Source: an uncultured Photobacterium sp. (lineage in GTDB: Bacteria > Pseudomonadota > Gammaproteobacteria > Enterobacterales > Vibrionaceae). From it: DNA of 42,746 nucleotides. The notes below the pieces were generated by a model that saw only the letters and a list, made by a program, of their open reading frames with translations, was not told where the DNA came from and did no database searches. The position numbers and the translations under genes are program-made. Of this stretch, positions 20,209-26,678 are shown one piece after another (the first letter of the stretch is position 1; each line of letters opens with the position of its first letter). The stretch spans positions 1-42,746 of the forward strand of contig CAMQXY010000015.1 of the NCBI GenBank assembly GCA_947039005.1. The letters run 5' to 3'.

Positions 20209-20574
20209 TTATTGCTGTTGTAAAAAAGTGATAGCTTGTGGCTTTTCTGCAAACGTGAAGTATTGAATATCAATATTACGGAATAAGGCATCTTCAACTT
20301 TGACGATTTTCTCAATCCAGTTCGCATCTGCAACGACGGCCACTTGCTTAATATGTTTTAAGCCAGCATGAACAAGATACTTTAATTCTTCAATAATTGC
20401 GGCTAATTCAATCCCAGAAAAACTTTCAATTTCTTCATAGATCACAATCCCACCATGATCCACTGTTTTAGCTTCGACATCCATCAAAATACGCTTCATG
20501 TCATCTTCAGTCACTTTTCCTGATAACGTAAAAGCAACGGCATTATCAATACCAATATCAACCATAGTTAACAT
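20209..20574 (-). CDS. SpoIIAA-like / STAS-type protein
   Basis: 121-residue cytoplasmic protein of the SpoIIAA-like family (PF11964 type). It shows alternating strands and helices with FTLSGKVTEDDMKRI, the acidic central stretch IVIYEEIESFSGIELAAI and the helix KYLVHAGLKHIKQVAVVAD. Proteins of this family adopt an anti-sigma-antagonist-like fold; several have been proposed to bind lipids or respond to stress, but no defined role can be given here. AAGGAA lies 8 bases before the ATG. Monocistronic, with a leader or 3' region of about 160 bp that contains CCCTTGGTA/TACCAAGGG inverted repeats (about 20144-20189). Confidence 0.8.
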   Translation of the reverse strand: MLTMVDIGIDNAVAFTLSGKVTEDDMKRILMDVEAKTVDHGGIVIYEEIESFSGIELAAIIEELKYLVHAGLKHIKQVAVVADANWIEKIVKVEDALFRNIDIQYFTFAEKPQAITFLQQQ

Positions 20575-21076
20575 ATAAAATTCCTTATTTAATATTACGT
20601 TAATAGCTGTTTTACTGTTTATCTTCTAATTACTATGCACCTTTATTAACCAAGCTTCAGCCTCGAAATACCGATCTTTATTCAATATCACATTGCAACA
20701 ATAACTATCGTCTTTATCCAACGTATTAATTGCTAGCTTATTGAATTAAAAATAATCAATCATGATTTATCAACACTGAATAGTTACCCACTTTTTTTGT
20801 GGATAACGGTAAATTGTACTTAAATATCAGTATCCTAATATTTTCAACAATAAAAATAGATAATAATACCAACGACATTAAGTCATTAGTCACAGTAGAC
20901 AATTATGATTTTAGCTGATTATATTTCCTATTCCCCCCGCGAATTCACCCAATAGGAAATAACGACATTTAGCTTGTAATCAGATCAGAATATTAATCGG
21001 TCGGGTATGGATACAAATTGAAAAATACCAGTATCCAACTTCAGGATAAGGAAATTTGAGATAAAAATTTCAACGT
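20575..21076. other. Intergenic region
   Basis: About 500 bp, AT-rich. I see no gene. The promoter for the SpoIIAA-like gene should be in the left part. Confidence 0.4.
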
Positions 21077-21104
21077 AAAAAAGCCGCACTATACAAGTGC
21101 GGCT
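21077..21104 (-). terminator. Terminator of the structured RNA
   Basis: 9-bp stem AGCCGCACT/AGTGCGGCT with a 5-base loop, followed by six T on the minus strand. No protein gene ends nearby on this strand, which is why the upstream segment is read as an RNA gene. Confidence 0.85.
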
Positions 21105-21437
21105 AGGATGTTGCGCTCAATGTACTTACATGGCACATCAAGTTGTTACGCTTCGTCACTCATTACGTTGAGCTTGGCGTGTCCGATAACTATGTATGGA
21201 CCCATATTTTGACGAAGAAGCAAGAGTTTTACGGTATTGCTATCCAAATTGTTAACAACTAAGAAGTGTTACCTTAGAAGCTTTTACGTATTTCACTTAC
21301 TGTTACGCGTTGCAACTAGATCGTTATTAGTAACGGGTTGAATAGGTCTACTAATAACAACCGGGACCTGAATCCCCTGAGTTAGATGAAAACAGCTTGT
21401 TTCCTCCGTAAGCTCGATAATATATCTCAGTTCAGGT
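21077..21437 (-). ncRNA. Candidate free-standing structured RNA of about 360 nt
   Basis: On the minus strand this segment contains many paired elements and no credible gene. From its 5' end: ACCTGAA/TTCAGGT plus CTGAG/CTCAG, a 12-bp stem with a GGGA bulge (21426-21437 with 21366-21381); inside it a hairpin AGCTT/AAGCT that shows ACGGAGGAAAC in its loop (21394-21414); a 10-bp hairpin GTTATTAGTA/TACTAATAAC (21323-21358); a CTAAG/CTTAG hairpin (21259-21277); a distant CTTCGTC/GACGAAG stem (21151-21157 with 21211-21217); and a terminator. It is GC-richer than its flanks. It is not tmRNA, RNase P RNA, 6S, GcvB, Spot 42 or a Qrr RNA by eye, and it has too few GGA motifs for CsrB. Identity unknown. 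Confidence 0.6.
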
Positions 21438-21439
21438 TA

Positions 21440-21480
21440 ATTTAACTATGGTAGATAAATCGTAAATAGGCAAACTTTAA
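21440..21480 (-). promoter_or_regulatory. Putative promoter of the structured RNA
   Basis: On the minus strand TTGCCT (-35-like) and CATAGT (-10-like) are separated by 17 bases, and transcription would start near 21437, exactly where the outer stem of the RNA begins. Confidence 0.4.
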
Positions 21481-21481
21481 G

Positions 21482-22025
21482 CTGTAATCAATATCAAAAA
21501 TATTAATCTTGTTATTTTTCAATACGCTATTAATAGAGTTCATTAATGCTAAAGCAACAACCTTTTTATACTCATATAAATGCTTATTAATATAATTGAT
21601 TCTATATTCGTTAAAAATAATATTAACCTTTACCACTAAATACCAACAAACAGATTATCGGGTATTTCTAACCTTGTGTTTATTATAATATCAATAAGTT
21701 AGTTGTTAATAACTAATCTTTAGCTACTTAATATGTACCTTTGTAGAAAACCATGCTTAAAATAAATAAAACCATCATTTTCTGATTTATTTTTATATCT
21801 TTGATCATCGAATTAAGACTTCACCACGCATCGTCGCATCAAAAATGAAATCTATGTTTTACTATAAAAAATCAAAAAACGTGATCTAACAATGAGATTT
21901 AAAATTCCATTAAAAAACTAGGAAAAATTCTTAATCCCTTTATCTGTTGTATCGGTATGGTCTCGGCTGCAGCGATTTGTTCAATTAAATACAAATCTTA
22001 TTTAAGCCCTAACGAGATCCAGCCA
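21482..22025. other. Intergenic region upstream of uhpT
   Basis: About 540 bp, AT-rich; no uhpABC-type regulator is present. A 64-codon minus-strand frame (21442-21636, GTG start, no ribosome binding site) is not credible and would run into the RNA promoter. Confidence 0.4.
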
Positions 22026-23786: not shown

Positions 23787-25337
23787 ATGACTGACACTAA
23801 AATATACAGCGATGACCGTAGTCAATGCGCTAAATTTCTTTATCGTGGTTCTTTCGGACCTAAAAAAAATCAAATAGATCACCTCCAAAAAGAAGGCTTT
23901 AATGCTTGGTTTGATAACCAATTTTCAGCAACACCTACTTATCATCGACCAAAACTAAACGCTCTTTTTGCCAACTCAACTTATAATCAAATACAAGATG
24001 ACATGCGCCAAGGCGTATGGTGGCAATGTGTTATTACAGGTGAAGACCAATTACGTCAACGCATGGCTTATGCATTAAGTGAATTATTCGTCGTTTCCTC
24101 TAATGGTGTAGGTTCGTTGAATGAAGGCTTAGCTAATTATTACGATATGCTGGTTACCCACGCTTTTGGTAATTTCCGTGATTTATTTAAAGCAGTTACG
24201 ATTAGTCCAATGATGGGACAATATTTAACATTATCAGGCAGTAAAAAACATAATCCCCAAACCAATACTTTTCCTGATGAAAACTTCCCGCGTGAATGTA
24301 TGCAATTATTCACGATTGGGCTATGGCAACTGAATAAATATGGTGAGCCTATTCTTGATCAAAATGGTAATAAAACACCGACTTATAATCAAGATGATGT
24401 CGAAGATATGTCACGTTTACTCTGTGGTTGGTATATCAATGCCCCCCATTGGCAGCATGATTGGATCAATCCAATGATGGCTGATAATAGTCAACATGAT
24501 ATGGAGGCAAAAATAGTCATGGGCACCCATTTTCCTGCAGGTCAAGATGCTAATCAAGATCTAGATGCCGTAGTCGATATGCTCTTTAATCATAACAATA
24601 CGCCTGCTTTTATTGCTATTCATCTTATTAAACGTTTTGTTACCAGTAATCCAAGTCGTAACCATATACGACGTGTTGCCGAAGTATTTGAAGATAACGG
24701 TGATGGTGTCCGCGGTGATTTACAAGCCACAATTAAAGCCGTTCTCATTGATCCTGATGTTTTTACTGGGGTAAGCCATGGAGCAGGACAAGGTATTCAG
24801 GGTGAACATCAACATTTTGGTTTACTTAAAGAACCTTTAATTGTAGTGGCTAATCAATTACGCGCATTAAACATACAAGCGGTAGATGATCAATGGTGGG
24901 ATACTCAATGGGCAGAAGTGACTTACGGTCAAGCTGCACTCAGTGCCGAGACTGTATTTAACTTTTATAAACCCAATGATGCCCCTCAAGGTGAAATTGC
25001 TAATTTAGGTCTTGCTGCCCCTGAATTTACGATTATAACTGCCGATATTATGCGTAAAACACACAATAGAATGTGGTACAACATTTTAAAATGGAATAAA
25101 ACTGACGCTAAAGAATGGCATTGGGATCGTAGTGATTTTCATGACTTATCGATGGACACCACAGAATATGTCGCGCTTATTAATGAACGATTTTTCGGTG
25201 GCTTAATGTCAAAAAGCCTCCAGAATTATATGGATAAGACTTTATCTCGCCACACAGAACCTTATCAACTCAATATACGCTTTATCAACGCCATATACAT
25301 CGCAACAACGGCACCTGAATTCTTTTGTGAAGGATAA
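23787..25337 (+). CDS. DUF1800 domain protein
   Basis: 516 residues, no obvious signal peptide or membrane helix. It fits the DUF1800 family: AKFLYRGSFGPKKNQIDHL at the N-terminus, then LRQRMAYALSELFVVSS, FRDLFKAVTISPMMGQYL, FPDENFPRECMQLFTIGLWQ, a GxHF-like HFPAGQD and HLIKRFVTSNPS. In many bacteria a DUF1800 gene directly precedes a DUF1501 gene, as here (6 bp apart), and the two are thought to act together, but the biochemical role is unknown. The ATG has GGA 7 bases upstream. First gene of a two-gene operon. Confidence 0.9.
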   Translation: MTDTKIYSDDRSQCAKFLYRGSFGPKKNQIDHLQKEGFNAWFDNQFSATPTYHRPKLNALFANSTYNQIQDDMRQGVWWQCVITGEDQLRQRMAYALSELFVVSSNGVGSLNEGLANYYDMLVTHAFGNFRDLFKAVTISPMMGQYLTLSGSKKHNPQTNTFPDENFPRECMQLFTIGLWQLNKYGEPILDQNGNKTPTYNQDDVEDMSRLLCGWYINAPHWQHDWINPMMADNSQHDMEAKIVMGTHFPAGQDANQDLDAVVDMLFNHNNTPAFIAIHLIKRFVTSNPSRNHIRRVAEVFEDNGDGVRGDLQATIKAVLIDPDVFTGVSHGAGQGIQGEHQHFGLLKEPLIVVANQLRALNIQAVDDQWWDTQWAEVTYGQAALSAETVFNFYKPNDAPQGEIANLGLAAPEFTIITADIMRKTHNRMWYNILKWNKTDAKEWHWDRSDFHDLSMDTTEYVALINERFFGGLMSKSLQNYMDKTLSRHTEPYQLNIRFINAIYIATTAPEFFCEG

Positions 25338-25343
25338 TTAATA

Positions 25344-26678
25344 ATGAGATTATCACGTCGACGTTTTTTAAAAACCAGTGCCGTTGTTAGCGCGACGACA
25401 TTATCAGCATCAGCATTTGCCTCATCAATATTGCCAACCAATACTGAGCCATCATCAACAAACACCAATAAAGCATTAGTATGTGTCTTTCTTTTCGGTG
25501 GTAACGATGCTTACAATATGATTGTGCCAACGCCAGGCTCTAATGCCTATCAAGACTATCAAGCTGCTAGACCTAAAATGGGTTTAGATAGTGATCAATT
25601 AAATACCTTGAACCTAACCACAACCAATGGGGTGCCACTTAGTATTAATAATAATATGTCATCATTACTACCGTTATTTGAAGCAGGTAATGCAACGGCG
25701 ATTATTAATTCAGGCCAATTAATTCAACCTACATCGCGAGATGATATCAATAATTATCGTGTCACGTTGCCACAATTTCTGATGGCTCATAACCAACAAC
25801 AAGATCTATGGCAATTAGGAGCAGAAAATCTTGGCAATGCCTATGGTTGGGCGGGGCGAATGATGGAAATGCTTGGCGCAACAGGAAACCTATCACCGCT
25901 TATTTCAATCAACCAAGGCCAAAAATTACTGCGTTATAAAAACGCTCAGCAAACCGTCGTTAACAGTGAGGGATCTGGTATCTACGCTGGTTGGAAAGAC
26001 GAAGAACGTCTTGATGGTTATTTTGCTCACTTTACGCAACGTCAATATAGCAATATTTATATGCGTAACTATGCAAGTGCGATGTCACATAATGTCTCTG
26101 AAAACGAAGCAATAAAAGCCATTTTAGCAAAACATCAAAATAATTATACTTACCCTAAATCTGATTTAGCCAAACAGCTAAGTATGGTAAGTCGTTTAAT
26201 TAAAGCGCGCGATGATATGCACCAACAACAACAGGTATTTTTTGTTGGCCTTGAAGGTTTTGATACCCATAATAATCAACAGAAAGATCACCCCAAATTA
26301 CTCAAACAAGTAAGTGACGCACTTAGTGTGTTTAATGCCGATATGGTCGATTCAGGTCTCAATGATCAGGTAACTTGTGTAACGATGTCTGATTTTGGCC
26401 GTCGTTTACAAGCTAATGCCAGTGGCACGGATCATGGTTGGGCAGGGCATCAAATAGTAACGGGAGGGGCTGTACGTGGCAATGCCGTTTATGGTGAATG
26501 GCCTCAACTCACTACAGATAGTCAACATAACTATAATAATGGTCGAATTATTCCAACCATTGCAGCGGATCAAGTCAATGCTTCATTATGCCGCTGGTTG
26601 GGGTTATCCGAAGCACAGATATTATCTATCTTTCCTAATTTAACTAATTTCAATTCACCTTATATTGAATTTATTTAA
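25344..26678 (+). CDS. DUF1501 protein with twin-arginine signal
   Basis: 444 residues. The N-terminus MRLSRRRFLKTSAVVSATTL is a Tat signal (SRRRFLK) followed by a hydrophobic core and an ASA/AFA cleavage region, so it is exported folded to the periplasm. The mature part matches DUF1501, a branch of the alkaline-phosphatase/sulfatase superfamily: VFLFGGNDAYNMIVP, FFVGLEGFDTHNNQ and VTMSDFGRRLQANASGTDHG with GHQIVTGGAV. These Asp/His segments resemble metal ligands of that superfamily. Substrate unknown. Co-transcribed with the DUF1800 gene. Its Tat motif makes it a candidate substrate for the translocon that TatA at 2407-2613 could serve, though this is only a guess. Confidence 0.9.
   Translation: MRLSRRRFLKTSAVVSATTLSASAFASSILPTNTEPSSTNTNKALVCVFLFGGNDAYNMIVPTPGSNAYQDYQAARPKMGLDSDQLNTLNLTTTNGVPLSINNNMSSLLPLFEAGNATAIINSGQLIQPTSRDDINNYRVTLPQFLMAHNQQQDLWQLGAENLGNAYGWAGRMMEMLGATGNLSPLISINQGQKLLRYKNAQQTVVNSEGSGIYAGWKDEERLDGYFAHFTQRQYSNIYMRNYASAMSHNVSENEAIKAILAKHQNNYTYPKSDLAKQLSMVSRLIKARDDMHQQQQVFFVGLEGFDTHNNQQKDHPKLLKQVSDALSVFNADMVDSGLNDQVTCVTMSDFGRRLQANASGTDHGWAGHQIVTGGAVRGNAVYGEWPQLTTDSQHNYNNGRIIPTIAADQVNASLCRWLGLSEAQILSIFPNLTNFNSPYIEFI

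Follow-up and report, generated by a model that had tools for sequence, protein, structure and literature searches.

Near the middle of this Photobacterium contig, the minus strand carries a segment that the original prediction read as a gene of about 360 nt for a structured RNA with a promoter and a terminator. Is it such a gene, how widely is it conserved, and what could its product do? These questions were addressed in the whole stretch of DNA analysed (42,746 nucleotides; the window) and in related genomes.

The RNA gene and its fold

The gene is about 363 nt long and extends from position 21,438 to position 21,076 on the minus strand, its ends being placed from the terminator and the promoter spacing. 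Upstream of it, on the same strand, a -35-like hexamer TTTGCC (21,469–21,474) is followed after an 18-nt spacer by a -10-like hexamer CATAGT (21,445–21,450), which lies inside a CCATA[G/T]TTA-type block common to relatives; a TTTGC-type block is found upstream of the Photobacterium relatives too. The promoter is absent from the output of a simple promoter scan, so the call rests on conservation across relatives, and it is in this way that the predicted promoter is supported. At the other end, an intrinsic terminator (21,076–21,104, minus strand) consists of AGCCGCACU, a loop and AGUGCGGCU followed by a U run, and its hairpin (21,104–21,082) is kept in relatives. A TCACA-type half site (GATCACA/TCACAATTTT), which by eye resembles a CRP half site, recurs upstream of the -35 hexamer, e.g. 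in loci L017, L082, L083 and L124.

The segment contains no ORF of at least 40 aa. Its GC content of 40.5% exceeds that of the flanks (29.4% and 24.5%), as had been noticed, and its minimum free energy of -97.7 kcal/mol (z -3.3) was matched by none of 100 dinucleotide shuffles. Being conserved, covarying and more stable than shuffles, the predicted minus-strand gene with its terminator is borne out, and the stretch 21,438–21,076 almost certainly encodes a standalone structured RNA with its own promoter and terminator.

The 5′ domain (21,366–21,437; all coordinates of the fold refer to the minus strand) is closed by the 12-bp helix P1, in which ACCUGAA (21,437–21,431) and CUGAG (21,430–21,426) pair with UUCAGGU (21,372–21,366) and CUCAG (21,381–21,377), the last two being separated by a GGGA bulge (21,376–21,373). 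Inside this domain, the hairpin P3 (21,394–21,414; AGCUU/AAGCU) shows little covariation and carries a loop, ACGGAGGAAAC, with GGAGG at 21,407–21,403. A clade-specific middle region with a 10-bp hairpin GUUAUUAGUA/UACUAAUAAC (21,323–21,358) and a nearly invariant linker, ACAAUUUGG (21,244–21,252), lead to a 3′ three-way core (21,151–21,217). The core is made up of P4 (CUUCGUC, 21,217–21,211, with GACGAAG, 21,157–21,151), P5 (21,201–21,198/21,184–21,181) and the nearly invariant hairpin P6 (21,173–21,169/21,162–21,158). The 5′ stem with its GGGA bulge, the CTTCGTC/GACGAAG pairing and the terminator all lie on the minus strand where they had been predicted. So does the hairpin with the ACGGAGGAAAC loop, but the claim that it displays GGAGG rests on comparative structure, because in single-sequence folding of 91 RNAs this motif did not stand out as unpaired against the remainder of the molecule (mean 0.36 vs 0.42).

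Covariation was assessed in alignments of Vibrio and Photobacterium sequences. The Vibrio alignment (A6, made with MAFFT unguided by structure) comprises 37 of 42 distinct sequences; L087, L122, L150, L153 and L156, which have no promoter match, and L149, L152 and L157, to which the pattern could not be fitted, were left out of the set. It contains five consensus helices with 97.9% of cells paired. Compensatory changes are numerous in P1 and P5, some occur in the terminator, and P4 and P6 are almost without variation. Double-change cells number 51 compared to 11.2 in shuffles (none of 500 shuffles reached 51) and to at most 24 when the partner strand was slid; pairs with double changes number 11 compared to 6.6 (reached in 2 of 500), and the count of pair types shows no excess over shuffles (reached in 178 of 500). 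In Photobacterium, five of the six P1 pairs analysed (alignment A3) have double changes, with 19 double-change cells compared to 3.4 in shuffles and a covariation score that none of 500 shuffles attained. P4 and P5 together (A1) have 21 double-change cells compared to 6.4, with no excess in the number of covarying pairs (354 of 500) or in pair types (494 of 500). Between the two groups, CUUCGCC/GGCGAAG in P4 gives way to CCUCGUU/AACGAGG and pairing is preserved, in an alignment that was fitted to the model and is thus biased towards it. Of the stems named in the original prediction, P1 and P4 therefore carry the compensatory changes that it had proposed to look for.

The support for P3 is modest. 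A stem of at least four pairs surrounds GGAGG in 35 of 37 distinct sequences, its register is not constant, and shuffled flanks match the stem in at most 5% of cases for 16 of the 37 (median 6%). A pseudoknot between GGAGG and a P4 strand, suggested by eye, was dropped because L080 and L081 do not preserve the pairing. Between the 5′ domain and ACAAUUUGG, seven loci (L006–L011 and L023) contain repeats resembling AAGCAACA/GTAAAAGC in a variable array, as a result of which the length of the RNA differs by tens of nucleotides among close species.

Distribution in the Vibrionaceae

Searched with the segment at the DNA level, 29 of 60 genomes (counting that of the window) contain matches, which range from 95–96% identity over the whole segment to a core of about 40 nt. 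The full architecture, i.e. promoter block, 5′ domain, ACAAUUUGG, paired 3′ core and terminator, is found in 28 relatives, one of which (L020) has CGGATG instead of GGAGG. From Photobacterium alone a covariance model (R1) of the 3′ core was built, which matches 50 of 52 Photobacterium genomes and all 48 of those of good quality; the two genomes that it does not match are 85% and 74% complete. Scanning the genome contigs for the core pattern gave 34 matches, 33 of them Photobacterium loci. The other one (L050, Lentisphaera) looks like a chance occurrence: it seemingly falls within a reading frame, lacks ACAAUUUGG and is not matched by the combined model described below.

Outside Photobacterium, R1 matches nine genomes of three other genera (E 7e-8 to 7e-4), including six members of genus g36 (E 2e-6 to 1e-4). 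This genus is read as Vibrio because one of its loci, L119, contains both primers of a V. cholerae Northern probe exactly. The Vibrio form is compact, about 180 nt long, with the order of elements unchanged. A combined model (R2, cut-off E ≤0.01) matches 196 of 329 genomes of the family, and model R3, built from 37 full-length Vibrio RNAs (cut-off E ≤0.001), matches 218 of the 329, with 217 of these among the 227 g36 genomes. In genus g27, 10 of 18 genomes match, six of them weakly (E 0.02–0.07), and both g30 genomes do. The other nine Vibrionaceae genera (30 genomes) gave no match, laxer filters on 24 of the 30 included. The RNA is nearly always single copy; among the matches listed, five Vibrio genomes have two R3 matches. 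In one of these (G309, contig C2) the two lie close to opposite contig ends, which may be due to an assembly overlap.

Searches beyond the Vibrionaceae returned one weak match in the order (E 0.004, 197 genomes) and two in the class (E 0.003 and 0.005, 185 genomes), the latter two unmatched by R2, and all three were treated as chance. The segment has no match in phage and plasmid collections, and the core pattern does not occur exactly in viral contigs. Rfam 15 has no match at gathering threshold in the window and none at E ≤5 for positions 20,950–21,700, and on the 28 related loci it finds just two tRNAs, both outside the RNA. The original prediction had recognized no known RNA class by eye, and the Rfam search that it had proposed gives the same answer: no family matches the window RNA. 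The conservation that it had expected in related Vibrionaceae extends across the family. The RNA is a new Vibrionaceae-wide family of the standalone bacterial structured kind, absent from Rfam 15, and its presence is unusually wide and constant for something unexplained.

6S RNA forms one long bulged hairpin. The new RNA is similar to 6S RNA in being structured, nearly always single copy and, in its Vibrio form, about 180 nt long, but unlike 6S RNA it has a three-way core and a 5′ domain and no Rfam match. The available part of PMC4612299 indicates a further similarity, abundance in V. cholerae.

The V. cholerae transcript and neighbouring genes

According to that part of PMC4612299, the V. 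cholerae vca0526–vca0527 intergenic region is one of the three highest-peak vesicle RNA regions probed. Its transcript, the HTRR transcript, was detected in whole cells by Northern blot and is visible with GelRed in stained total RNA, and the band is lost in a deletion mutant; the same part of the paper assigns no family, structure or function to it. The V. cholerae-group homologue of the window RNA is flanked by clcA and a CobW-type gene, R3 matches loci of this group, and both probe primers of PMC4612299 are found exactly in the homologous locus L119, where the probe end falls within the GGAGG domain. Since four of the eight primer sequences tried are present in it, L119 is a close relative and not proven to be the strain of PMC4612299. 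One probe primer had no match in 38 genomes, and the other recovered V. cholerae-group loci from 329. The window RNA and this transcript share the closed 5′ domain with GGAGG, ACAAUUUGG, P4/P5/P6 and the terminator and belong to one new family, although the V. cholerae-group form (about 185 nt) is much shorter than the window RNA (about 363 nt). Thereby the vesicle-associated transcript, as described in the available part of PMC4612299, gains an evolutionary identity. Open-licence literature, searched without supplements, gives no function for the clcA–VCA0527 RNA, which might have a catalogue name (e.g. a Vcr number). The RNA is probably important, given that almost every Vibrio and Photobacterium genome searched contains it and that it is abundant in V. 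cholerae.

Neighbouring genes were identified by tblastn, with the SLAC1 queries taken from L013, L082 and L088 themselves. In most Vibrio loci, the RNA has upstream of it, in divergent orientation, either a ClC channel gene or, directly, a SLAC1-type anion-channel gene, and in five of six longer loci (L082–L086, not L087) SLAC1 follows beyond ClC. SLAC1 is also the divergent gene in the majority of Photobacterium loci, as well as in the g30/g27 loci L080, L081 and L088. Frequent divergent linkage of the RNA to an anion-channel gene is seen in L012–L029, L080–L088 and L105–L159. A CobW-type gene usually lies downstream in Vibrio loci, on either strand, and has no match in Photobacterium loci.

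Such linkage could mean that the RNA controls, or is co-regulated with, the divergent channel gene, e.g. in anion or pH homeostasis. SLAC1 or ClC is indeed divergent in most loci outside the P. phosphoreum- and angustum-type clades, across four genera. However, the clade of the window has an MFS transporter at the channel position, and at the same position of angustum-type loci the query proteins find no match, yet both keep the RNA; wherever ORFs were listed, channel gene and RNA do not overlap. We consider a role tied to the channel improbable. Action in trans is the most likely mode, judged by synteny alone: clades without the anion-channel neighbour common elsewhere have kept the RNA.

Two further observations concern the window. 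A SpoIIAA-like (STAS-type, Pfam PF11964) gene lies downstream of the RNA (20,209–20,574, minus strand) and is near the RNA in some close relatives but not in all of them. Two adjacent ORFs of 516 and 444 aa (23,787–26,678, plus strand), the second with a twin-arginine-like start, resemble a DUF1800/DUF1501 pair.

Two near-constant elements and possible partners

The two elements that stand out in the family are the linker and the GGAGG motif. The 9-nt ACAAUUUGG lies outside the covarying helices and is exact in all 29 Photobacterium loci. It is also exact in 48 of 49 other loci, which were fetched with the models and are biased towards it since R1–R3 contain it; the exception, L152, has ACAAUAUGG. 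The 5′ domains were compared in 91 RNAs, a set restricted to loci in which ACAAUUUGG is exact and a promoter-like pattern is present; the promoter requirement removed 20 locus ids, including several duplicates. In 89 of these RNAs, a run of 5 nt or more is complementary to the anti-Shine-Dalgarno (anti-SD) tail of 16S rRNA, in a register that alternates between GGAGG and AAGGAG. Of the two scored as lacking the complement, L020 (CGGATG) is genuine and L096 in fact has GGAGG. Outside this set, L088 and L152 have no GGAGG or AGGAG near the core, and in L153 the motif lies just beyond the 110 nt examined. By itself the complementarity is weak evidence, because at least 5 nt of it occur in about 45% of shuffled 5′ domains.

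GGAGG also resembles a ribosome-binding site, and the RNA might be a leader, a riboswitch or the mRNA of a small protein, all the more so as a same-strand CobW gene comes next in many Vibrio loci. We regard a coding or cis-regulatory unit as highly improbable. No conserved ORF follows the motif, as it would in a small-protein mRNA: a start codon 2–13 nt downstream is absent in 58 of 87 RNAs, and the peptides sampled from the remaining 29 differ between groups. The RNA ends at its terminator. In other Vibrio loci CobW has the opposite orientation, and Photobacterium loci contain no match to it.

The same motif could titrate CsrA (RsmA), in which case the GGA loop would serve as a decoy, together with GGAUGGA of the linker in Vibrio. 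CsrB-type decoys bear many CsrA sites. As in CsrB/CsrC-type RNAs, GGA is held within a stem-closed domain; ANGGA, the CsrA-type core, is found in 71 of the 91 5′ domains, and the medians for the 37 Vibrio RNAs of A6 are 5 GGA and 3 ANGGA (range of the latter 1–4). Unlike those RNAs, members of the new family have few ANGGA sites, not many in repeated hairpins, and no Rfam match. The median is one ANGGA (range 0–2) in 29 Photobacterium RNAs (A2), the window RNA having one, and 20 of the 91 5′ domains have none (L096, read from a wrong start, is among them). A CsrA decoy thus seems unlikely to us, and we hold a base-pairing small RNA with ACAAUUUGG as its seed against mRNAs to be just as unlikely. 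The near invariance of these 9 nt outside covarying helices would suit a seed, and the complement AUCCAAAUUGU lies 16–26 nt upstream of the start codon of an hns-like gene in all four V. cholerae-group genomes tested. However, the remaining 26 of 30 hns-like loci showed no such site near the start, AUCCAAAUUGU has 14 matches in four Vibrio genomes (one in each being the RNA itself) compared to 11 for a reversed control, and searches of the main text of a V. cholerae RIL-seq paper did not find the locus. As the complementary site is limited to the V. cholerae group, hns was rejected as the general target of the family. In that group (L181/L182–L185), the hns-like leader contains, near its ribosome-binding site, a perfect 11-nt complement of ACAAUUUGGAU in the RNA.

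The explanation that we prefer, with a probability of roughly 0.6, is that the RNA is a scaffold that acts in trans and offers its two constant elements to a common partner, the ribosome being slightly favoured over CsrA or base pairing. The 5′ stem would close a domain that holds the Shine-Dalgarno-like GGAGG (or AAGGAG), and the nearly invariant ACAAUUUGG together with the three-way core P4/P5/P6 would complete the scaffold. The 5′ element might then bind the anti-SD tail of 16S rRNA or otherwise occupy the translation machinery. The original prediction had suggested two functions for the motif, CsrA binding and competition for ribosomes; the motif counts (89 of 91 RNAs with the anti-SD complement compared to 71 of 91 with ANGGA) lean towards the ribosome. 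Binding to the anti-SD tail specifically is a tentative suggestion, which we hold slightly less firmly since the exceptions L020, L088 and L152 were counted. A little more tentative still is the possibility that the folded RNA, which has no conserved start codon, holds or tunes 30S subunits by presenting them with a Shine-Dalgarno sequence inside the closed domain and with a contact through ACAAUUUGG. To our knowledge, a global regulatory RNA that tunes 30S subunits in this manner has no counterpart; if true, an unclassified, abundant Vibrionaceae family would act on the translation machinery itself. The consensus structure, the covariance models and the near-constant elements make the function of the RNA directly testable.

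In L152, a Vibrio copy (genome G212, core near 1201–1305), ACAAUUUGG is replaced by ACAAUAUGG and GGAGG is missing, while the 3′ core is retained. The two constant elements are altered together in this locus, which possibly reflects a co-evolving pair or a decaying copy.
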